From Spirochaetota bacterium (lineage in GTDB: Bacteria; Spirochaetota; UBA4802; UBA5368), in NCBI GenBank assembly GCA_035477215.1, contig DATIKU010000053.1:62001-126000 (forward strand): DNA of 64,000 nucleotides, in the 5' to 3' direction. The first letter of the stretch is position 1, and each line of letters begins with the position of its first letter. The position numbers and the translations under genes are program-made. This document shows, piece after piece, positions 16,839 to 29,785 of this stretch. The notes beneath the pieces were generated by a model, which had not been told where the DNA came from, did no database searches, and saw only the letters and a program-made list of their open reading frames with translations.

Positions 16839-17867
16839 ATGCGATCAATCCCACGCTTCGTCCGCTGTGCTCTGCCATTCGCGCTCCTCCTCGGCGCAAT
16901 CGGCTGCCGTAAGGGCGAGCTCATTACCTTCAACCGGCCGATGCTGGGCACCATCATTACCATTACGATTATCGCAGATTCCAGCGAGGCAGGGGTCAGA
17001 GCCTCGGAAGCGGCATTTAACGAGATTGCCCGGATAGAGGCCCTGATGAGTCCGCGGCTGGCCGGGAGCGACGTCGCGCGGCTGAACCGCGATGGCGGTC
17101 GCATCCACGTCACCGTTTCGGACGAGACCTTCGCGCTGATCGAAAAGTCCATCGAGGTGTCGCACCGGACCGACGGCGCCTTCGACATTAGCTTCGCCTC
17201 GCTCGGCCACCTCTGGAATCTGGCAAGCGACGACTTCCGCCCGCCGGGGCACCGCGAGACCGCGCGCCTCCTTCCGCTGGTCGACTACCGGAAGATCACA
17301 CTGCATCCGGAATCGCGCCGGGTCTCTTTCGCCCTGCCGGGGATGAGGGTCGGCCTCGGCGGAATAGCGAAGGGATACGCCATAGCCCGGGCGGTCGGGG
17401 CCCTCCGCCGGGAAGGGGTCAGAGCCTCGATAGTCGACGCGGGGGGTGATCTCCAGGTGACCGGCGACAAGTTCGGCGAGCCATGGCGGGTAGGCCTTAT
17501 GCATCCGCGCAAAAAAGAAATCCTCCTCACAATAGCGGCCCGCGACGGCGATTCGGTCGTGACGAGCGGTGATTACGAGCGATTCGCCTTCTTCAATGGA
17601 GAGCGATATCATCATATAATCGATCCCAAGACGGGCTTCCCGGCCCGGGGGCTGGCATCGGTGACGGTACTGTGCTCTGACCCCGTGCTGGCCGACGCCT
17701 ACGCCACGGCCCTTTTCGTGATGGGAGGGGTCAGAGCCCGCGAATTCGCCCTTGCTCACCCGGAGATAAAGGTCATTCTTATCGACGAGGACATGCGTAT
17801 CAGCGCATCGAGGGAGCTCGAAGACCGGGTTGGGCCGTCCGGCCGCGCAAAAATCGAGTGGTTTTAG
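16839..17867 (+). CDS. apbE: FAD:protein FMN transferase (ApbE), lipoprotein
   Basis: Periplasmic Mg2+-dependent enzyme that attaches FMN to Thr of Nqr/Rnf-type flavoproteins. 342 residues with a good lipobox (GAIGC, Cys23). Family landmarks: RTDGAFDISFASLGHLW, GLGGIAKGYAIARA, IVDAGGDLQVTG, TSGDYERFAFFNGERYHHII with DPKTGFP, and ADAYATALFVMG. Odd feature: the 12-mer GGGGTCAGAGCC occurs three times in the same codon phase, each giving Gly-Val-Arg-Ala at residues 52, 193 and 297, plus one inverted copy at about residue 279 (Cys-Ser-Asp-Pro). All core motifs survive, so the gene looks functional. No rnf or nqr genes are in the window. Confidence 0.93.
   Translation: MRSIPRFVRCALPFALLLGAIGCRKGELITFNRPMLGTIITITIIADSSEAGVRASEAAFNEIARIEALMSPRLAGSDVARLNRDGGRIHVTVSDETFALIEKSIEVSHRTDGAFDISFASLGHLWNLASDDFRPPGHRETARLLPLVDYRKITLHPESRRVSFALPGMRVGLGGIAKGYAIARAVGALRREGVRASIVDAGGDLQVTGDKFGEPWRVGLMHPRKKEILLTIAARDGDSVVTSGDYERFAFFNGERYHHIIDPKTGFPARGLASVTVLCSDPVLADAYATALFVMGGVRAREFALAHPEIKVILIDEDMRISASRELEDRVGPSGRAKIEWF
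16992..17003 (+). repeat. REP-like 12-mer, copy 1 (in apbE)
   Basis: GGGGTCAGAGCC in codon phase, encoding GVRA at residues 52-55 in a variable helix of ApbE; flanked by CA upstream and TCGG downstream. Confidence 0.75.
17415..17426 (+). repeat. REP-like 12-mer, copy 2 (in apbE)
   Basis: GGGGTCAGAGCC in the same codon phase as copy 1, encoding GVRA at 193-196 just before the conserved IVDAGGD strand. It shares the following TCG with copy 1. Confidence 0.75.
17674..17684 (-). repeat. REP-like motif, inverted copy 3 (in apbE)
   Basis: GCTCTGACCCC on the plus strand, an 11-base inverted match to the motif. With copy 4, 42 bases downstream, it forms an 11-base inverted pair able to fold as a stem. 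Confidence 0.65.
17727..17738 (+). repeat. REP-like 12-mer, copy 4 (in apbE)
   Basis: GGGGTCAGAGCC in the same codon phase again (GVRA at 297-300), just after the ALFVMG motif. It pairs with the inverted copy 3. Confidence 0.75.
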
Positions 17868-17873
17868 CGGGAG

Positions 17874-17885
17874 GGGGTCAGAGCC
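17874..17885 (+). repeat. REP-like 12-mer, copy 5 (after apbE)
   Basis: GGGGTCAGAGCC a few bases after the apbE stop, between apbE and the convergent 1.46-kb-residue-class lipoprotein gene. Confidence 0.75.
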
Positions 17886-17928
17886 CCGGCACAACGCATA
17901 TACTACTTTTTTATGTTTCCTGGACGGC

Positions 17929-20900
17929 TCAAGGATTGGCCCTGACATCATAGAATATGTCCGCTTCGGTCGGCGTGGTGGCGTTTCGGTAATCCTTCCA
18001 AAGGAACAATCCGCCATAAGGAGTGCCACCATCATTATAGTACAGTCCCTTTAATGAAAGTTCGTCATCATCCCACGACGAAACAATACCGACCACTACG
18101 CCGTCATCATCGGCAACGTCGTCAAACCAGTTGAGCGTCCAGGCGCCGGCGTTGGGGATGACGGCCTGGGCCACTATGACGTAGCCGACCGAGTAATAAT
18201 ACCTGTTATCCATCCAGCTTACAACGGCGCCATTGAGCCCGTCGCTGGCGATCGAGAGGTTGGAGACATAGGAACCGGTACCGGCGACATCCAGAAGTGT
18301 TCCAAAATTCGCCTGCACGCCGGTGGCCGCGGTAAATTTTTCCGCGTAAATGCGCCCGAGACTGTCCGCATAGGCGACGACGGGATTGTTCGATGTATCG
18401 AAGGTAATGGCCGCGTCGACCGCCCCCGCGAAGCTGATCGGGTTCGTCCCCCAATCGGCCAGGGCTCCAGTGGCACTGTTGTAGCGCGCGAGATAGATGT
18501 TTGCGCCGTCGCGGTAGAGCACCAGGAAACGGAAATTCGCGTTATCAGGAGCGGCCCTGACGTCGATAATCTCCGCGGCGGTTCCATTGTACAACAGCAG
18601 CCCCCGACCACCGTTAGCTGCGGCACCAAGAACCACGGTTCCGAAGGAATTCACCCGTTTGTAATAGATATTACCGTCCGTATTGGACTCAAAAATCACA
18701 CGGGCGCCTCCGTTATCGCCATTGGCGTGGAGAAGCTTGACGTTATCCATCACATCCCCGGCGGTATAGAGCGTTGATGTGGAGTATACCGATCCGTTCC
18801 CCATGTTTATTACGGCACCGAGGATGCTGCCGCCGCTCTCCCATGCGAAGAAGAGTCGCTGACGATAAATGTAATACCGCTGCGTAGCGGCCCATCCGGG
18901 AATGGCGGCACGAAGCGTTATCTGGGTGGCGGAGTCGACGGACTGGACTATGCCGACGGTGTTATTGCCCACGATCTTCACCACATCGCCGGGATGGACG
19001 CGGTAGGCGGCCAGCTGGAAGTTGGTGAGCACATCGCCGTCGGTGAACTGGTTGCCGGCAACCGCGGAAATGGTTCCCGTGGCCACCAGCGGTTCCGTGC
19101 TCGCGAAAACGAGATAGTCCTCGTTACCGGTATCGAATATATTCTTATTCAGCGTAAGCTGAGTCGGCGAATCCCTGCTGACCACAACCGCGAACCGGTT
19201 GTCGCTGATGTTGTATACCAGGTCGCCGTTCTCCACGCCGGCAACATCAAAAGCGGCACCCGCCGACACGAGAAGCCCGGCACTCAGGGCCGAAGCCTTG
19301 CCGTATTTGAGCCACGTCTCCGCGGGCGTGACGAACCTGAGAAGCCAGTAAAGATCCGCGTCGGACATGAAGGCGGCGGCGCCGTTTATATCGAGCGCGC
19401 GCTCCCTCACGGCAAAAGTGCCCGTAGTGACCCGCGCGATAGACGTGTCGGTGACGTTTACCAGCACGTCATTATTGACCACACCGGTCGTGACGAAAGT
19501 CGCATTGTCGTCATAGAGCGGATTGGCGGGGGGAGTGTCGGCCGTACCGGTGATTGTCCGGTAATTGTACACATCGACCGTTACGTTATCACCTACGTTA
19601 AATGTTGCCAGATCGACCAGTATCCGATAGAAGGGATCGACGGGACTGGCGGCGTGTGTGGTGCAATAATTATTATAAATACTATAGTTTTCGGCCCCAA
19701 GACTGAATATCGGGTCGGAAAGGTTAAGCACGCGGGTCGAGGACGCGGAAACGAAAGCGCTGTCGGGGGTGGTAAGATTATAGACGAGCGCGTTTGCCGC
19801 GATCGCGCTCCAGTCGGCGGTATAATCGACGAGTGGATTGGCGCCGAAAGCATTTTCGGTTCCGTTATCAACAATTGGAGGATCTTCGACGATCATATAG
19901 CCTTCGCCGGCGTCGAAATTAAGACCCGGGATCGTGAGCTCCGTAGCTGAAACCACCACGGTAACCTGACCATACGTATTATCGTTGATATTCGCCACCC
20001 AGTCCCCGGGCACGACCAAGGCCGTCCAATCATCAAGATTGGTACTATCGATCAGACTGTCGGCGCTTGCTTCCGCCGTTCCTTCGTCAATCAACCGGTA
20101 AATGTCGTACTGGTCTCCCGTATGGGGGAAGATATCGGCGTCAAGCGCGAGCATGTCCGTATTCACATCAGTAACGCGGGCATAGCTGATTGGAGGACCA
20201 GCGCTGATATTCACGACCACGTCATTGACCGCGACACCCAGTGCCGTAAAATCAACGTCCGGATCGTACAGCACCACGGGTTCCTCGGCCCCGCTGTAAT
20301 CGGCCGCCATGTTTACCCCGTTCAGGGAATTGATATATACGTAGGTCGCACCCGAATGAATCACATCCCCGACCCCCATCCAGGCCGGCGGCGCATAATT
20401 ATGTTCGGTAATGACCCTGTTGGCCGTGCTCGTTTGCGTTGGAGGCGTAACATTCATGGCGTGATCATCGGTCAGGAAACTGGTGAAGCTGGTAACCCCA
20501 TCGGCGATCCGGTACACGTTCCCGGTGGTGACCACCCCCGCGCTCTGGCCGAGCACATGCCTGAAATTCGTCGAGCGCGTCGCCACCGCTCCCACGTGAT
20601 CGGTGACGTCCATAATACGATCGTCGTTCTGTATAACCGCATTTCTCAGATTGACGTCAAAATCATAAAATGGATTAGCCGGGATGTTGTGGGTAGACCC
20701 GACGCCGGTGCCGTTGTGAATCCGCGTTACGAAACCATTATAAACATTGTTATCGAGACCGGCCCCATAGCGATAATACATGGGAATCGCCGACGCATCC
20801 TGGTAACCGGCCGTATGGCCGAACGTATTCCCGAAACCGGCGGCGGTATTATCGCTCCAGTAGGTGCTGAAACCGAGGCCCGTCGCCCCCCCGGTAACAT

Positions 20901-22305
20901 ATTTCACGTAAAATCCGCTCGCACCATCCTCGAGAACGACGAACACACCACCGTAGCCATCCGGGAACAGCCGCGGGTCGCTCAATCCGTGGGCGTTATC
21001 GATAAGCTGGCCCGGGTGCCAGTTTACGTTGGGAACACCGGTTGCGTTGATATAGGTTGCGCGCACGCTGGTCCCATCCACCCAGGCCACATAGGCCGTT
21101 GCATCCGTGTTCTGATGAACGGTGAACTCGGAGATGTTTGCCGCCGGCGGGCCGGCCGCGACGGCATTGAGACGTTCGTCATTAATGGCGGGATCGGTAT
21201 CGTTTGCCGTCATGAAATTGCCGGTCTGCGTCACTATCGTCGCGTGATCGATGATGAAGTAGTACCTGGTTGCCGTCGTTAAGCCCGTAATATCCGCGTA
21301 GTGCACCGTCGGGGTCCCCGCCTCCGCCTTGGTGAAGCCGTAAACCGTGGTGAGCCCATAGTTAACGGTAAAACCGGTAGCCGGGCGCGTTGTTGTCCAG
21401 TTGATCCTGACTGAATTCTGCGTGACTTCCGTAAGCCATACCGAGCCGATCGTAATGGGACCGCCCGGATTGGGGTCGGCCTCCACGGTGAAGGTCCAGG
21501 TGTTATTGACGCTTACCACCAGGTCACGAAGTCCCGTATCTCTGATCCCCGTTCCGGGAGTGTCATCCAGGTCGACCGTATAGACCTGCGCATAGGTGAG
21601 AGTATTCAGTGGGAGATACCATGTTTTCTGATCGAGGCTGAAATAGGGGGCTACCGACGCGGCCGCCGGAGCGATGGTAAAGGTGGCGGCGGTCACGTTC
21701 TGAACCTCTTTATTGAACGATACCACCACATAGCCCACGCCCCGGCTGTACGGCCCGGCACCAACCGGATACCGGGAGGTGGCGATGACGACCGGATCAT
21801 AGTCACCAGAATCATCATCACCGGTGGTGAACTCCGCGGTATCGTTGCCGGGTATACCGGTATCAAGCCCACCGGAATCACGAATTGCCGCAGGATCGAC
21901 CTCAATGGTGTAGGGAGTTGAATATGCGAGATTTCCAGTAAATGCTATCCGCACAGCCCTATAATATCCGGAACCGTCCGCAGCAAAGCCGGTTACCGAA
22001 GCGAACCCCGGATTGCCCGGAATGTCCACGCTCGCTGGGGTAATATCAGCGACATCATAAATCGGTTTTGAAAATATTATGACAACGTCCGTGTCGATCG
22101 GAAACCGGTCGGTAGCGGGAAGCGGCGCGTCCGGATAGATGGACTCAACCTGCAGAAACTCGGTCCCCGGGCTCGAGCCCGGAACGGTCCCTCCCGTTGC
22201 GCTGAGGTCGACGTTCGGCGCTTCGGGCGCGCAGGCGTGGAAAAGCAGCGCCATGACGGCCGGGAGCATGAAGGATAGCGCCGGACGGTATCGGAGTGTT
22301 CGCAT
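17929..22305 (-). CDS. giant lipoprotein with Ig-like and FN3 domains
   Basis: About 1458 residues from ATG 22305 (MRTLRYRP), chosen because AAAGGGGGGTGAT lies just upstream; an ATG at 22335 is unsupported. The signal peptide ends LLFHAC, a spirochaete-like lipobox. Two SbsA/Big_5-type Ig-like domains (about 55-160 and 170-275: DTDVVIIFSKPI, RGVGYVVVSFNKEV) precede an FN3-like domain (about 285-365). The middle (about 640-1140) holds at least six related modules of the form GD-x-V-x-N-x-x-D-N ... T-x-L-x-L ... Y-x-I-Y. The end resembles propeller-like repeats. Likely a surface protein; ligand unknown. Confidence 0.82.
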   Translation of the reverse strand: MRTLRYRPALSFMLPAVMALLFHACAPEAPNVDLSATGGTVPGSSPGTEFLQVESIYPDAPLPATDRFPIDTDVVIIFSKPIYDVADITPASVDIPGNPGFASVTGFAADGSGYYRAVRIAFTGNLAYSTPYTIEVDPAAIRDSGGLDTGIPGNDTAEFTTGDDDSGDYDPVVIATSRYPVGAGPYSRGVGYVVVSFNKEVQNVTAATFTIAPAAASVAPYFSLDQKTWYLPLNTLTYAQVYTVDLDDTPGTGIRDTGLRDLVVSVNNTWTFTVEADPNPGGPITIGSVWLTEVTQNSVRINWTTTRPATGFTVNYGLTTVYGFTKAEAGTPTVHYADITGLTTATRYYFIIDHATIVTQTGNFMTANDTDPAINDERLNAVAAGPPAANISEFTVHQNTDATAYVAWVDGTSVRATYINATGVPNVNWHPGQLIDNAHGLSDPRLFPDGYGGVFVVLEDGASGFYVKYVTGGATGLGFSTYWSDNTAAGFGNTFGHTAGYQDASAIPMYYRYGAGLDNNVYNGFVTRIHNGTGVGSTHNIPANPFYDFDVNLRNAVIQNDDRIMDVTDHVGAVATRSTNFRHVLGQSAGVVTTGNVYRIADGVTSFTSFLTDDHAMNVTPPTQTSTANRVITEHNYAPPAWMGVGDVIHSGATYVYINSLNGVNMAADYSGAEEPVVLYDPDVDFTALGVAVNDVVVNISAGPPISYARVTDVNTDMLALDADIFPHTGDQYDIYRLIDEGTAEASADSLIDSTNLDDWTALVVPGDWVANINDNTYGQVTVVVSATELTIPGLNFDAGEGYMIVEDPPIVDNGTENAFGANPLVDYTADWSAIAANALVYNLTTPDSAFVSASSTRVLNLSDPIFSLGAENYSIYNNYCTTHAASPVDPFYRILVDLATFNVGDNVTVDVYNYRTITGTADTPPANPLYDDNATFVTTGVVNNDVLVNVTDTSIARVTTGTFAVRERALDINGAAAFMSDADLYWLLRFVTPAETWLKYGKASALSAGLLVSAGAAFDVAGVENGDLVYNISDNRFAVVVSRDSPTQLTLNKNIFDTGNEDYLVFASTEPLVATGTISAVAGNQFTDGDVLTNFQLAAYRVHPGDVVKIVGNNTVGIVQSVDSATQITLRAAIPGWAATQRYYIYRQRLFFAWESGGSILGAVINMGNGSVYSTSTLYTAGDVMDNVKLLHANGDNGGARVIFESNTDGNIYYKRVNSFGTVVLGAAANGGRGLLLYNGTAAEIIDVRAAPDNANFRFLVLYRDGANIYLARYNSATGALADWGTNPISFAGAVDAAITFDTSNNPVVAYADSLGRIYAEKFTAATGVQANFGTLLDVAGTGSYVSNLSIASDGLNGAVVSWMDNRYYYSVGYVIVAQAVIPNAGAWTLNWFDDVADDDGVVVGIVSSWDDDELSLKGLYYNDGGTPYGGLFLWKDYRNATTPTEADIFYDVRANP

Positions 22306-22501
22306 CACATCACCCCCCTTTGAGCGGGGAAACATCGAATTTCCGTTTTTTTGCAGGGGGCATACAGTTTTTCTTTACATTTTAATCGTTGCGGCATGTA
22401 TTTATCAATGTATGCTGCATATCGGCACAGAATCAACATACACCTTCTCGATCCTATATATTACAGAAGAAATCGGGATTAAGGCAATAATAATTTAGAC
22501 C
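22306..22501. promoter_or_regulatory. divergent intergenic region
   Basis: AT-rich 196-base gap between two divergently read secreted-protein genes. It includes T-runs near 22347 and an ATCCTATATATTAC stretch near 22450. No clear paired -35/-10 boxes could be fixed. Confidence 0.3.
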
Positions 22502-25015
22502 ATGCTCCGTAAAAAAATTAGATTTCTCCCGCTGCTGCTCATCACCGCCCTTTCTCTGCTGTTGACAGAGAAAGCGGGTCGTGGAACCATCACCTCGATC
22601 ATCCTCACGCCGGCCAACCCGACCACCATGTCGAACACCCTGGGGTATTACCTGGCGGGCAAGGCATATACCTTTACGATAAACGTGGTCGATCCGGATG
22701 TCACCGCCTGGAACCAGATCACCGATGCCAGAATGACTATCGCTAACACAACCAATATTGTAGTAAGAAACACGGTCGCCTTCGGCTTCGGAGCATCTCC
22801 TCTCGTTGCCGATACGCCATTCGCAGTAACGGTGGACTCGGGGACCGTGGATGCCGCCGGCCTGGTCACCGCCGGCAGCACCTATAACAACTTTACCGTG
22901 CGATTCACCGTAACATTCAGATGGGACACCCCCGCATCCGCCTGGGCCGCCGCCCGAAATGTCATCGGATCCGCCACCACCAACAATCCGGCCGTGAATA
23001 CCCTCACCGACACCCGCACGGTATCGTACGGCGTCGTTTCCACCATTCGGATTGTCGGCTTCGCCCAGGACGGCGACGCGGCCGACGGGCGAGTAAACCC
23101 CTGGCACACGGCGTTCAACGTAACCGGTACCATCGCATACAACATACCGGGCGCGGTCGCCGCCGACGCGGTGCATCTGGTCGCCGACGCGGGTGTGGGC
23201 GAGTACACCGCCCCCGGCTCCACGCTGTATCGATCCGGCTTCATCACGCCCCACGTCGACGCAACGCCGGCCGCTCTCAGTATTCCCGTAAGCGCCGAAT
23301 GGTTCAATTCCCTGGGATGGGTCACCGCGCGCGGCAACCACACCTGGACGGTACGTGTCGCCATGAATACGGCAGGCGGCCCTGAAACCTCCGTGAATAC
23401 CCTTGCCATCAACTGCGACCGCATCCGGGTGACCAATATTGAGTTTTTCGGTGGGGGCGGCGTCAATCCGCCTCCGCGCTACTACCGCAGTGTAAACCTG
23501 CCCGGCACGCAGGTACGGGTGACCGCCCAGCTCGAGAATGCCGGCACGGGAATGGTCGGAAACACGACTATCAGGATATCCGACAGCGCCGGAACCCCCA
23601 ACACCTACGACGTGGTAATCGCCAACGGCGCCACTCAGGGCGTTATCGATATGAGCGCGAACTATCCGGCGGTCCCCGGCGACATCCCCGCAAACGACAC
23701 GACGGTACTCTCGTACAGCGCGGTGCGCGTTTTCGGCGGAGCCTATGACGGCGACACGGCCGCGGCCGAGGGTCAGGACGATTTTGGAAGTATTACGCAG
23801 GCCGCGTTAGGAACGTATCAGATTTATTGGGATCATGAGGATCCACCGGGGGCAAACGCCGGAGGGTTTACCACCTGGGTCAACCAGCAAACCACTGCGA
23901 CTTCACTTGAATTAACCTGGACTCCCATCAATCCACTGGCAAATGATGACCACGACTTTTATTCATACAGAATCTATTACCGGGAAGATACAACCGTTCC
24001 ATGGATTATGATTGATCGCAACACTGCAAATTACGGGCCTCCCGCCGGAACATTCAGACTGGATCTCATCACAACCGGCACCGCAGCAATCCAGGGATTG
24101 GTGCCACTCACTATGTATGATTATTTTGTTTCAGCGGTTGACGTTTTTGGAAATGAGATTTATACATTATTTCCCGGGAGCATCATTACCGGCCCCACAG
24201 GTGCGGACTGGTGGGGCGAAATACAGACACAACCACTGACCATTCTTTCTGAAATTACCGACGGAGTAACAATCTTCCAAGATAATTCTTTCACTCTCAA
24301 CCCCCTTGCATCAGCACGCCCAGTTCGCGACACAGCGATCCGCGTAAAATTAACAATATCCGGAACCGCCATTACCTTGCCAGAAACAGTTAATTTAATA
24401 GTGGCACAAGATGGAGCGACAGACCTAATAAGTGGAGGCACGGTAAATCCCATCCCCGTTGAACCTTGGTATCGGATTAACTGTGCGAAGAGCGGCCCGA
24501 ACATCTGGACTGCTCATATTCCCGACACTAACACTTTAATAACAATTGGCACGGATGTGCGCTTTGTGATCGAAATGATACATGGTGCATCCATCACATA
24601 TGCGGATCATAATTCCGAACTCGAAATTCCTGCTGGCGTTCCCCCTGTAACTCCAAATGACTATGAATGGACATTCTCGGTTATCACCCCCACCACCTTC
24701 CAGCCCTGGCCCACGCGCATCCTGAACAATGTCATTACCGACAAGGATCCGGTGGCCTACCCGGCCTATTATCTCTCTGAGGACGCCTACGTCACCATCA
24801 AGGCCTTCGACATCAAGGGACGCCCCGTCGCCACCCTGCTCGATAACGCCTTCCGCAAAGGCGGGCAGAACATCAAGGAGGGCGGCTGGCGCGGCGACAA
24901 CAAGGCAAACCGAAAGCTCGGCGTGGGTCTTTATTACATCCAGATAGAGGCGAAGGCCGTGTCGAGCGGCAAGGTTATCCTCAATTCCTTCCAGAAGGTG
25001 GTCATGGCGCGTTGA
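22502..25015 (+). CDS. secreted FN3 protein with FlgD/sorting-type C-terminus
   Basis: 837 residues. Signal peptide (FLPLLLITALSLLLTEKAGRG), then about 430 residues of Ala/Thr/Asn-rich beta-type repeats. An FN3-like domain at about 450-560 contains YSYRIYYREDTTVPW and LVPLTMYDYFVSAVDVFGNE. The C-terminal 90 residues form a FlgD-Ig/type-A-sorting-like domain (YLSEDAYVTIKAFDIKGRPV, GGWRGDNKANRK, GVGLYYIQIEA). Base composition drops clearly from about 23.8 to 24.65 kb, then recovers for the C-terminal domain, suggesting a mosaic. No Shine-Dalgarno is obvious. Probably exported or surface-attached. Confidence 0.78.
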   Translation: MLRKKIRFLPLLLITALSLLLTEKAGRGTITSIILTPANPTTMSNTLGYYLAGKAYTFTINVVDPDVTAWNQITDARMTIANTTNIVVRNTVAFGFGASPLVADTPFAVTVDSGTVDAAGLVTAGSTYNNFTVRFTVTFRWDTPASAWAAARNVIGSATTNNPAVNTLTDTRTVSYGVVSTIRIVGFAQDGDAADGRVNPWHTAFNVTGTIAYNIPGAVAADAVHLVADAGVGEYTAPGSTLYRSGFITPHVDATPAALSIPVSAEWFNSLGWVTARGNHTWTVRVAMNTAGGPETSVNTLAINCDRIRVTNIEFFGGGGVNPPPRYYRSVNLPGTQVRVTAQLENAGTGMVGNTTIRISDSAGTPNTYDVVIANGATQGVIDMSANYPAVPGDIPANDTTVLSYSAVRVFGGAYDGDTAAAEGQDDFGSITQAALGTYQIYWDHEDPPGANAGGFTTWVNQQTTATSLELTWTPINPLANDDHDFYSYRIYYREDTTVPWIMIDRNTANYGPPAGTFRLDLITTGTAAIQGLVPLTMYDYFVSAVDVFGNEIYTLFPGSIITGPTGADWWGEIQTQPLTILSEITDGVTIFQDNSFTLNPLASARPVRDTAIRVKLTISGTAITLPETVNLIVAQDGATDLISGGTVNPIPVEPWYRINCAKSGPNIWTAHIPDTNTLITIGTDVRFVIEMIHGASITYADHNSELEIPAGVPPVTPNDYEWTFSVITPTTFQPWPTRILNNVITDKDPVAYPAYYLSEDAYVTIKAFDIKGRPVATLLDNAFRKGGQNIKEGGWRGDNKANRKLGVGLYYIQIEAKAVSSGKVILNSFQKVVMAR

Positions 25016-25031
25016 TGGCCCGGTGGGCCGA

Positions 25032-25056
25032 GGGGTCAGAGCCGAGGGGTCAGAGC
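25032..25056 (+). repeat. REP-like motif, copies 6 and 7 (tandem)
   Basis: Two direct copies, 25032-25043 (GGGGTCAGAGCC) and 25046-25056 (GGGGTCAGAGC), separated by GA, directly after the upstream gene's stop codon. Confidence 0.8.
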
Positions 25057-25106
25057 ATTAAAAGATTACTCCCAATTGCCATAAGCCAACATAAAGGGGA
25101 CATCGA

Positions 25107-25118
25107 GGGGTCAGAGCC
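25107..25118 (+). repeat. REP-like 12-mer, copy 8
   Basis: GGGGTCAGAGCC preceded by CGA as in copies 6 and 7. The bases just before it read AAGGGGACATC, a second short motif that recurs inverted near 26625-26637. Confidence 0.75.
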
Positions 25119-25157
25119 GTCGAAAATTTCCGTGGTACCGGCCAGGGCTCGAAAGAT

Positions 25158-25195
25158 GGGGTCAGAGCATTTTTTTAAAAAAAATGCTCTGACCC
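25158..25195. repeat. REP-like inverted pair, copies 9 and 10
   Basis: The motif and its inverse are joined by a T7/A8 run, making a perfect 37-base palindrome at 25159-25195 (18-base arms, single A at the centre). It lies 80 bases before the RAYT gene. It could be a BIME-like substrate of the transposase or a bidirectional terminator. Confidence 0.8.
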
Positions 25196-25274
25196 TTCAG
25201 AAAGTTTTAACTTCGCGACCTCCAAAAACGTATCTATTCTAGAACCTCATTAAGATACGTTAAAGGAGTGTCAC

Positions 25275-25865
25275 ATGGCCCGTAAAACCCGTATCCAGCA
25301 GGAAAACCTCACATACCATATAACCTCCCGCTGTATCGAATGGCGGGCGATGATGGAGCTTGACCTTTTTAAGCAGATTTTAATTGAAGTATTGGGCCAG
25401 ACGCAGGAAAAATACGATTTCGAGCTTTCCGCATACCAGATAATGGATAACCATATTCACATAGTAATCAGGACAATCCCGGGCGGTGCACCTATTTCGA
25501 AAATCGTTCAGTATATTAAGTCCCGCTTTGCCGAAAAATACAACCGGCTGACCCTACGAATAGGCCCGTTCTGGAATGAACGATACCACGACACCATTAT
25601 CGAGCACGCGGACAATCCCGAATACTACCTCCTGTGGTTGCTCTGGTATCTCGCCTTCAATCCGGTCCGGAGCAAAACCACGGACAGCCCGCGGAAATAC
25701 CTGTATTCCAGCATACATTCATATCTCGAAACTGGCAAACGGACCCCAGTGAGAGTCGATTTGCACCGGTATTTTATGCAGTTGGGAAAGACCGTCGAGG
25801 AAAGGCTGAAAAGATTTCTCGTCTACGAGGACACGTACCGCAGGCGCCTGGCGATAATCATTTAA
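25275..25865 (+). CDS. REP-associated tyrosine transposase (RAYT, Y1 family)
   Basis: 196 residues, single-domain Y1/IS200-like HUH nuclease. The metal-binding H-x-H is at 60-62 within YQIMDNHIHIVI, and the C-terminal WYLAFNPVRS (about 124-133) corresponds to the helix that carries the catalytic Tyr. AAAGGAG lies six bases before the ATG. RAYTs are domesticated single-copy relatives of IS200 transposases that act on REP sequences; here thirteen copies of one short motif surround the gene and none is seen elsewhere. No flanking IS ends or target duplications are visible, fitting a RAYT rather than a complete IS. Confidence 0.9.
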   Translation: MARKTRIQQENLTYHITSRCIEWRAMMELDLFKQILIEVLGQTQEKYDFELSAYQIMDNHIHIVIRTIPGGAPISKIVQYIKSRFAEKYNRLTLRIGPFWNERYHDTIIEHADNPEYYLLWLLWYLAFNPVRSKTTDSPRKYLYSSIHSYLETGKRTPVRVDLHRYFMQLGKTVEERLKRFLVYEDTYRRRLAIII

Positions 25866-25953
25866 CACTAACGGCTGGATTAATCCGCATGATGTAATAA
25901 TCGAAAGGGTGTGCTTTCCAAAAATCAGGACGAAACAACCGCTCGCCCCTCCC

Positions 25954-26434
25954 CTAATCATAGACCCATCCCCGCCTTAAACCAGGCAGGTTTAGCTCCT
26001 CCACAACCTCGGAGAACTCCCCCCGGAGACGGTTCTTCCAAGATTAGGGTGATTCCTGATCGCCGGCCTCGGATAATACTGCGACATAAGCGAGATGTGT
26101 ACCGATGAAGACAGCTCCTCCGCAATAGCACGAAATATGGCTCTGACCCCTGATTTAAGTAATGCATCCCGGTTGCCTCTTGCTGCATGCCACTGAATTC
26201 CTGCTTATCTGATAATTCTGACAAAATATACACCGAAGATTGCAGTGTTCATAAAATACGCTGAATATTCCCGTCGATAACCGGCCCGTCCCCTTTATGC
26301 AAACATATCGATGTAACCGCAAATAAACCATCGACTCTACAGTACCCTCCGCCGGCCGAACGTATCGCCCCGCACCCCCTCGCGCAGAGGCTGTATGGCG
26401 AACGCTCGCCATAATACTGAATGCCATTACACAT
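25954..26434 (-). pseudogene. radical SAM protein remnant, internally deleted
   Basis: The N-terminal piece (about 26434-26165) reads YGERSPYSLCARGCGAIRS, then SICLHKGDGPVIDG, then after a frameshift YEHCNLRCIFCQNYQISRN with the radical SAM CxxxCxxC. The C-terminal piece (about 26138-25954) reads RAIAEELSSSVHISLMSQYY and, after a one-base loss in a G6 run, EFSEVVEELNLPGLRRGWVY then stop. The middle, normally over 100 residues, is missing, and the REP-like motif sits exactly at the join (26139-26150). The gene is dead unless the frameshifts are errors. Confidence 0.75.
26139..26150 (-). repeat. REP-like 12-mer, copy 11 (at deletion join)
   Basis: GGCTCTGACCCC on the plus strand, i.e. the motif on the coding strand of the radical SAM remnant, located at the join of its N- and C-terminal pieces. 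Confidence 0.8.
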
Positions 26435-26779
26435 TATGAACGCCGTTCATCGGATTTCGCATAAAGCAAAAAAAATATTACTTGATAAAATAATTTCTTG
26501 AAATAATACGGATAACTATTATGTTCTGCGAATGCATCGTTATGATGCATTGTACATCCTATCAATAGAATATGGTCGACTGTTGACTCGATCAATTGGT
26601 GATGCCTCATTTTTTATAAAGATGTCCCCTTATCGCATACGGTAATATAACAATTTGTTATATTACCACAACAATTTGATATATCATTGTTCCGTCGCTG
26701 AAAATGGCCCACGTATATCTGCACACTATATGCGACTGTTGCACCATCTTTTCATTATCGAACCATTTATGAGGGCACA
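26435..26779. other. AT-rich intergenic region with dyads
   Basis: 345 bases, clearly AT-richer than the rest of the window. It contains AATGCATC-GTTAT-GATGCATT near 26531-26551 and a perfect 12-base inverted repeat at 26641-26667. GATGTCCCCTTAT near 26625 is the inverse of a motif near 25094. No coding potential is seen. Confidence 0.5.
26641..26667. promoter_or_regulatory. perfect 12-base inverted repeat, operator-like
   Basis: GGTAATATAACA and TGTTATATTACC separated by ATT, 113 bases before the small gene at 26780. The AT-rich dyad without a T-tail looks more like a repressor site than a terminator. Confidence 0.4.
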
Positions 26780-27013
26780 ATGACAGAAGAAACCCTGGAA
26801 GGCAAATTCCGTCGCAAAAAACGCAAGAAGTCGTTCATGCAATTTGACGAGATCACGCTCTCCGAGCTTATTGCAATTTCCAACGAACCCTTTCTGGTAG
26901 AAGGTACAGTCCTATCCACAAGCGGTACTCATTTCCATGGACCGATGGGAGGATTCAATGAATTCTCCCCTGTCCAGGACTTCCCTTTACTGCCTGATGA
27001 AGACATCCAGTGA
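26780..27013 (+). CDS. hypothetical small protein
   Basis: 77 residues, not recognised. The N-terminus is very basic (EGKFRRKKRKKSF), followed by an acidic, Phe/Pro-rich section ending LLPDEDIQ. GAGGG lies four bases before the ATG, supporting translation. It has no partner genes, and its stop codon touches the 3' end of the mutY remnant. It may be a genuine orphan of the accessory region. Confidence 0.45.
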   Translation: MTEETLEGKFRRKKRKKSFMQFDEITLSELIAISNEPFLVEGTVLSTSGTHFHGPMGGFNEFSPVQDFPLLPDEDIQ

Positions 27014-27160
27014 TCACCTGATAAAAAAGCGATCCCCATTACTGTAAAGGAATTCCTCCTCCACCAGTTCCGCAAGCGCCGTGCGTACCGCGTGGGAGTC
27101 GAAGCCGATTAGCGCGGTTAACGCCGGTGCCGTAATGCCGGAATTGCCGACGACTCAAGC

Positions 27161-27172
27161 GGGGTCAGAGCC
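27161..27172 (+). repeat. REP-like 12-mer, copy 12 (at mutY join)
   Basis: On the mutY coding strand it reads GGCTCTGACCCC, giving Glu-Ala-Leu-Thr-Pro in that frame, exactly where the large internal deletion begins. Confidence 0.8.
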
Positions 27173-27277
27173 TCCGAGCGGATGTCCGGAAAAGCCGTAA
27201 TAAACTCGTCGAACTTCTTCGCGACCCTGTCCGACTGCGTCTGCTGGAGCATGATTTCGGATGCAAGTACATGATAA

Positions 27278-27289
27278 GGGGTCAGAGCC
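27278..27289 (+). repeat. REP-like 12-mer, copy 13 (in mutY)
   Basis: Inserted between YYARHGK and PYHVLASE, replacing the roughly nine residues (RDLPWR-type) found in intact MutY and bringing in a stop codon. Confidence 0.8.
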
Positions 27290-29697: not shown

Positions 29698-29772
29698 GGG
29701 GTGTTAGCTCAGCTTGGTTAGAGTGCCTGCCTGTCACGCAGGAGGTCGCGAGTTCGAGTCTCGTACACCCCG
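29698..29772 (+). tRNA. tRNA-Asp (GTC)
   Basis: Complete cloverleaf: acceptor GGGGTGT pairs with ACACCCC, the D-arm reads TAGCTCAGCTTGGTTAGAG, the anticodon stem CCTGC/GCAGG encloses CTGTCAC (anticodon GTC), and the T-loop reads GTTCGAGTC. CCA is not encoded. A TTGACA at 29650-29655 upstream may be its -35 box; the -10 is weak. Confidence 0.96.
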
Positions 29773-29785
29773 CACGGTTACCGGT

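Follow-up and report, generated by a model that had tools for sequence, protein, structure and literature searches.

A gene encoding a REP-associated tyrosine transposase (RAYT) of the Y1/HUH type was found at positions 25275–25865 (+) in a 64,000-bp stretch of DNA, hereafter the window (GenBank assembly GCA_035477215.1, contig DATIKU010000053.1), whose host belongs to an uncultured Spirochaetota order. The gene is accompanied by exact copies of an 11–12 base unit, RGGGTCAGAGCM, which has no internal palindrome. Comparison with related genomes revealed that copies within genes had replaced existing bases one for one, that they were letter-perfect between species, and that nearly every RAYT neighbourhood carried a variant of its own. 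These features probably reflect a RAYT of the TIRYT kind that acts in cis within approximately 3–8 kb, converts partial matches to its cognate unit in place and keeps the copies at consensus; the RAYT, we infer, would be the driver of the overwriting. The preliminary description of the window had reported the motif cluster but missed the in-gene copies gained by base replacement and exact between species, which are the unusual part of the system.

Identification of the RAYT gene

The intact open reading frame (ORF) of the window RAYT encodes 196 amino acids (aa). The sequence predicts an HUH motif (N59-H60-I-H62) and a candidate catalytic tyrosine, Y125, within WYLAFNPVR, and invariant columns in the RAYT alignment support both assignments. 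The protein matched Pfam PF01797 (Y1_Tnp) with an E value of 2e-13 and narrowly passed the NCBIfam model NF047646 'REP-associated tyrosine transposase' (81.5 bits, cut-off 80). Profile comparison gave E. coli TnpAREP (4er8) as the best solved relative. The Y---NP tyrosine motif of class 2 (PMC6006769) was present as WYLAFNPVR, and the pattern Y..(F/Y)NP was kept by most aligned members, with NA or NS in some. Only two PF01797 matches, the window RAYT and a gene on contig C37, were found in the window genome, in keeping with few diverged copies per genome, and up to 29 matches occurred in some relatives. An IS200/IS605 identity was rejected, as NF033573 gave 37 bits against a cut-off of 55 and the two copies of this genome were just 53% identical. 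The traits of subclass 2.1 (median 238 aa, YIELNP or Y[IV]HLNP, C-terminal helix-turn-helix), to which most published TIRYTs belong, were not seen in this 196-aa protein with YLAFNP, and Pfam returned no helix-turn-helix domain.

Distribution of the motif in the window and the genome

Twelve exact copies of GGGGTCAGAGC were located between 16992 and 27288, ten on the forward and two on the complementary strand (starts at 16992, 17415, 17674(-), 17727, 17874, 25032, 25046, 25107, 25158, 26140(-), 27161, and 27278). The rest of the window contained none, and the expectation from shuffled sequence was 0.02 per whole window. The clustering noted earlier was therefore real, although thirteen exact copies had been counted; the thirteenth is a one-mismatch copy, AGGGTCAGAGC, at 25186(-). 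Base 12 following GGGGTCAGAGC was C in nine of the twelve copies and A in the remaining three, and over 427 distinct copies the unit was RGGGTCAGAGC followed by A or C.

A pattern search of the window genome (G000; 3.57 Mb in 62 contigs) detected 24 copies of the exact 11-mer compared to one for the reversed control pattern. Seventeen of them lay no more than 10 kb from one or other RAYT gene (binomial p ~4e-28), 12 near the window RAYT and 5 near that of C37. The genome-wide search proposed in the preliminary description thus showed that the copies are not evenly spread, and this clustering also led to the rejection of a genome-wide signal of the uptake type. The remaining seven copies comprised one aligned copy each on contigs C61 and C48, three close by on the same contigs, and one each on C16 and C58. 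The aligned C61 and C48 copies correspond to RAYT-flanking copies in genomes G001 and G002, and point to a RAYT that has since been lost or to an earlier arrangement. At C48:70382 (L029:7383) and C61:112384 (L028:7385) the motif is kept within two genes, an FAD-dependent oxidoreductase-like gene and a class I/II aminotransferase gene, with no RAYT nearby.

Linkage of the motif to RAYT genes across the order

A total of 46 genomes of the order were compared; these are metagenome-assembled genomes, one per species, in which sites of related species are non-independent. At least five copies of the motif were present in 32 of the 35 genomes with a clear RAYT homologue, compared to 3 of the 11 without one (Fisher p ~8e-5). 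The exact 11-mer was missing or nearly so in three RAYT-bearing genomes (G013, G022, and G037). The RAYT flanks of G013 and G022 held the variants GGTGCCAGAG, GGTGTCAGAG, and GCTCAGAGC instead, and no motif could be identified for the G037 RAYT. The tie to the RAYT suggested previously was therefore upheld, both in presence or absence and in the sequence of the motif.

Mapping of motif type on the RAYT tree revealed clustering, with 12 changes compared to 19.5 in shuffles (0 of 200 as low), and also switches between close RAYT relatives. When a genome carried RAYTs of different motif types, nearly every neighbourhood contained its own variant only. In G035, contig C11 held nine copies of variant E and none of A, whereas C1 and C4 held 15 and 5 copies of A and none of E; in G041, locus L167 held four E and no A, whereas L168 held 15 A and no E. 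Across 34 loci of type A, the density reached 2.3 copies/kb in the first kilobase upstream of the RAYT and 1.1, 0.8, and 0.5 copies/kb in the first three kilobases downstream, beyond which it was mostly 0.0–0.2 copies/kb. A bump at -8 kb includes the ApbE gene treated below, which was seen there in two related genomes. The copies thus thin out over approximately 3–8 kb from the RAYT, and the density peak anticipated from the window was confirmed.

Clusters distant from an intact RAYT were considered as counter-evidence. Three dense clusters of this kind in G035 (L110, L111, and L112) each proved to hold RAYT fragments. These represent RAYT graveyards, approximately 10-kb motif clusters in which the copies are still exact. 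By contrast, no RAYT fragment was found in the cluster on G017 C2 or in two smaller G035 clusters. Genomes G003, G019, and G036 (73, 89, and 96% complete) carried 12–25 motif copies with no clear intact RAYT. Family f6 (G012, G016, G024, and G028) had 12–29 RAYT matches and 101–154 motif copies, with many RAYT fragments located at the ends of contigs, which looks like a recent expansion.

The possibility that the motif serves the host independently of the RAYT, for instance as an RNA element or the site of a regulator, with the RAYT being just a neighbour, appears highly improbable. Its conservation at the nucleotide level in both orientations would fit such a function; motifs without a detected RAYT occur in G003 and G019, but these genomes are incomplete (see above). 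An Rfam scan of the region gave nothing except a tRNA, so that no known RNA family supports this idea, and the presence, variant, and position of the motif follow the RAYT in dozens of loci as well as in the RAYT graveyards. A tRNA-Asp (gtc) lies at 29698–29773, approximately 4 kb downstream of the RAYT.

Motif copies within the ApbE gene

The ApbE-family FMN transferase gene of the window (16839–17867, +; PF02424, E=1.6e-79) contains four copies of the motif. The copies at 16992–17002 (+), 17415–17425 (+), and 17727–17737 (+) each encode GVRA, and the copy at 17674–17684 (-) encodes SDP on the sense strand. A fifth copy, at 17874–17884 (+), directly follows the stop codon and has aligned copies in G001 and G003. 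The ApbE proteins of G004, G003, and G001 share 77, 76, and 68% identity with that of the window; the four in-gene copies occur at the same sites in all of them with all 11 bases unchanged. Protein-guided and whole-gene alignments of the outgroups G005 and G010 showed no ApbE motif, and the differences consisted of substitutions with no insertion or deletion (indel); at the second site G005 has GGCGTCACGAA.

Among codons specifying the same amino acid in the four species, 12 of 12 were identical within the motif, compared to 49 of 167 outside it (p=1e-6). A chance product of amino acid conservation (GVRA, ALTP, SDP) was rejected for ApbE, because most of these residues do not occur in the outgroups and AGA was kept as the arginine codon in all four species. 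In a distant genome (L173), ApbE has a separate copy, approximately 9 kb from the RAYT of that genome; since this copy lies 4 bases from the fourth site, the ApbE region has been hit twice.

Overwriting of other genes without indels

A gene pair encoding a U32 peptidase and histidyl-tRNA synthetase (HisS) adjoins the RAYT in G017 and G029. Four motif copies in U32 and two in HisS could be observed in G017, and two in U32 in G029. None of the remaining aligned sequences (13 U32, 14 HisS) carried the motif, even though type-A RAYTs are present elsewhere in many of the genomes concerned; that the motifs occur only beside the RAYT argues for a process acting in cis. The changes had occurred in place. 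In U32, GGC GTC GAC GCC became GGG GTC AGA GCC, which placed Arg where most relatives have Asp; in HisS, AGC GGC GAC CCC became AGC TCT GAC CCC; and a further change within the pair turned GCG GTC GGC GCC into GGG GTC AGA GCC.

ORFs of at least 250 codons held 130 of the 427 distinct copies, compared to 70% of random positions, so the motif is depleted in genes and yet not strictly extragenic. The in-gene copies occupy all five stop-free reading frames of the motif, in genes including ApbE, HisS, U32 peptidase, and MutY. Forty of 42 in-gene sites with motif-free homologues (approximately 30 independent positions when shared sites are counted once) showed no indel, among them all four ApbE sites and all six U32/HisS sites of G017; these codon alignments ruled out simple insertion for the in-gene copies. 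The homologous sequence matched the motif at 6.2 of 11 bases, compared to approximately 3.0 at other places read in that frame (p=5e-8), which indicates that the overwritten places were earlier partial matches, although tolerance under selection may have contributed. The same codons of an HI0933-like flavoprotein gene read GCTCTGACCCC beside an A-type RAYT (L168) and TCTCTGGCACC beside a C-type RAYT (L070), where TCTCTGGCACC is the reverse complement of the variant belonging to the L070 RAYT itself.

Exactness of the copies

Within 8 kb of RAYTs, 203 exact and 87 one-mismatch copies were counted, 67 of the latter differing solely at base 1. Two-mismatch copies showed no excess within this distance (67 compared to 101 expected), and one-mismatch sites across the window genome were no commoner than in the reversed control. 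Decayed older copies were thus looked for, both near RAYTs and throughout this genome, and not found; the copies are either exact or absent. Their exactness, together with the age implied by the ApbE divergence, indicates that they are actively kept or restored, and the missing intermediates disfavour a stepwise birth by point mutation.

The main rival explanation holds that selection or molecular drive acts on sites arising by point mutation, as in DNA uptake sequences. The motif would be useful as a binding or recombination signal, either for the RAYT or for some other protein; near-matches in the vicinity of the RAYT would evolve into exact sites, which purifying selection then holds. The uptake sequences of Neisseria are likewise short, non-palindromic, situated partly in genes without indels, and highly conserved (PMC2397512); exact conservation across four species and the survival of copies after the departure of a RAYT would also be expected from such a process. 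It would explain the upkeep of the motif but neither a private motif for each RAYT nor the missing intermediates, which it predicts and of which the two-mismatch sites give no sign. Uptake sequences number approximately 2000, are spread over the core genome, and are tied to transformation, whereas the present motif, at 24–168 copies per genome, lies within kilobases of a transposase gene, clusters at RAYTs, and has a private variant for each. Selection would, moreover, need to promote substitutions in several genes simultaneously, at positions that are well conserved in the enzymes. We regard this explanation as unlikely, though it deserves more weight than any other alternative to RAYT-driven conversion.

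Anatomy of the RAYT loci

The inverted pair GGGGTCAGAGC ... GCTCTGACCCT at 25158–25196 stands 89–117 bp before the RAYT start and forms a long hairpin, and is the probable upstream terminal repeat of the RAYT. The earlier remark that only inverted pairs of the motif can fold proved right, with 25159–25195 forming a DNA hairpin of 18.8 kcal/mol. Further copies upstream of the RAYT occur at 25032–25042 (+, intergenic), 25046–25056 (+), and 25107–25117 (+). The last two are kept in G004; the first is absent there and, with the copy at 25046, constitutes one clear 14-bp tandem duplication. For most RAYTs of the order a copy is found 70–165 bp upstream of the start, frequently on the opposite strand; a same-strand (+) copy 13–37 bp downstream of the stop is also common. 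At the window RAYT the upstream pair is present but a close downstream copy is not, the nearest being 277 bp away. These bracketing copies may be likened to the terminal repeats of TIRtrons, which have the consensus GGGGWSAS (PMC3733652); GGGGTCAG fits this consensus with W=T, S=C, and S=G.

This anatomy raises the alternative of ordinary transposition of REP- or TIR-like elements, in which the enzyme inserts copies or tandem duplication multiplies them and the in-gene cases are tolerated insertions. The TIR-like arrangement around RAYTs, the intergenic arrays, and the duplication at 25032/25046 agree with it, and subclass 2.4 is known to include cases of REPs inserted into genes (PMC6006769). 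It is nevertheless contradicted within genes, where copies replace bases one for one in all but two of the aligned sites, and the spacers of the arrays are mostly unalike outside the motif; transposition as the general explanation therefore seems improbable, less credible than selection of the uptake type. Dense arrays of 10–12 copies were observed at L091:7250–9442 in G004, with a spacing of approximately 35 bp, and at L092:5106–10181 in G003; most spacers of these arrays differ, and one spacer is duplicated.

Next to the RAYT, a radical SAM gene and a gene for a MutY-like glycosylase, both intact in G004, are broken in the window by deletions of several hundred bases (regions 26130–26190 and 27147–27161). 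The deletion ends lie within approximately 1–13 bp of motif copies, which are still exact. The copy at 26140–26150 (-) sits in the radical SAM remnant with deletions on either side. In the decayed MutY-like gene, the copy at 27161–27171 (+) is 13 bp off a deletion junction, G004 having GGGGCCAGGGC at the same site, and the copy at 27278–27288 (+) is kept in G004 and encodes ALTP directly before YHVLxSEIMLQQTQ. The interval between ApbE and the RAYT, at 17929–25015, is taken up by two genes whose very large products (1468 aa, complementary strand; 837 aa, forward strand) are predicted to be secreted or located at the surface and show weak phosphatase-N and fibronectin matches; no motif copy occurs in them.

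Proposed mechanism of in-place conversion

RAYT-type enzymes are capable of cleaving single-stranded DNA, of attaching to it covalently through a tyrosine, and of joining (PMC8266576). In E. coli, template switching during replication is stimulated where proteins are covalently bound to DNA (PMC6357072), and template switching generates multi-base replacements in place (PMC7202029). The route that we favour for conversion by the RAYT can be outlined on this basis. Near its gene, the Y1 enzyme would bind and nick single strands that carry cognate or near-cognate sequence, and nicking would form the usual covalent tyrosine-DNA link. Repair or replication at this link could switch template to a motif-bearing copy, or the enzyme could join a motif strand; either event would put the 11-mer in place of the near-match and leave the number of bases unchanged. 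Such conversion would strike intergenic DNA and genes alike, and copies would be kept at or restored to consensus.

A broader proposition, which is put forward tentatively and with less assurance than the account of the locus itself, is that this class of RAYT may be a local in-place rewriter of DNA, turning near-matching 11-mers into its own recognition sequence without insertion, so that the motif written follows the specificity of the enzyme. Codons of essential neighbours would thereby be edited and every copy held at consensus.

Several observations weigh against conversion by the RAYT. The motif-free homologues stand in for ancestral sequences, and copies at motif-like sites would also survive under purifying selection, so the partial-match result alone is no proof of conversion. 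Added bases accompany the copy at L168:4363 and some of the arrays. Template switching at hairpins only is insufficient locally, because close pairs (<120 bp apart) are mostly direct and not inverted. Motifs also persist without a RAYT on C48 and C61 of the window genome, which needs action in trans or selection of the copies.

Relation to known systems and implications

RAYTs, TIRYTs, and GGGGWSAS repeats are already known. The TIRYT/TIRtron system is alike in having a RAYT-like Y1 gene flanked by inverted repeats that share GGGGWSAS, at near constant distance from the gene, with repeat families in some genomes; the available part of that source describes no overwriting of genes, cis clustering, per-RAYT variants, or exact in-gene conservation of the kind found here, where the conserved unit has 11–12 bases (PMC3733652). 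RAYT/TnpAREP enzymes with their REP, BIME, or REPIN sequences (PMC3116915, PMC8266576, PMC6006769) likewise combine a domesticated Y1 HUH enzyme with a cognate short repeat, each RAYT having its own repeat family whose variants follow the enzyme. Unlike those repeats, the present unit has no GT[AG]G foot, is not self-complementary or mainly extragenic, numbers tens of copies near the gene rather than hundreds genome-wide, and is gained by replacement instead of insertion. A canonical REP, i.e. a GT[AG]G-tagged palindrome of 20–40 nt, was accordingly rejected for this non-palindromic unit without a GTAG or GTGG foot. The suggestion of a minimal, undescribed REP class was thus upheld only in part: the unit is no hairpin REP, and GGGGTCAG fits the consensus of the repeats around TIRYT-type RAYTs (PMC3733652). 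Quasipalindrome or template-switch mutation (PMC7202029, PMC6357072) resembles the present case in its templated multi-base replacement in place, stimulated by covalent DNA-protein links. It usually homogenises the arms of one nearby imperfect inverted repeat, whereas here a fixed 11-mer is found over kilobases in both orientations beside a specific enzyme.

The open-licence literature contained no report of the motif GGGGTCAGA with a bacterial transposase, although a prior description is possible outside that literature, and likewise none of a RAYT motif that overwrites codons, is exact across species, and is private to each neighbourhood. The new elements are the private variant of each RAYT neighbourhood, the thinning of copies with distance, the RAYT remnants within several clusters that have no intact gene, the indel-free overwriting of genes, the exactness across species, and the lack of two-mismatch decay. 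Should the enzyme prove to cause the overwriting, this behaviour would be categorically new.

The findings bear on the manner in which REP-like repeats spread and on the reasons for which domesticated Y1 transposases are retained. Hairpin units are usually assumed to be inserted and copied, whereas the aligned genes here record replacement without insertion, tied in cis to one enzyme that has a private motif. The dissemination of REP and TIR repeats becomes directly testable by a simple reporter. If the proposed account is true, HUH enzymes can drive templated, site-specific conversion that links the sequence recognised to the sequence written, and neighbouring housekeeping proteins would be edited as a side effect.

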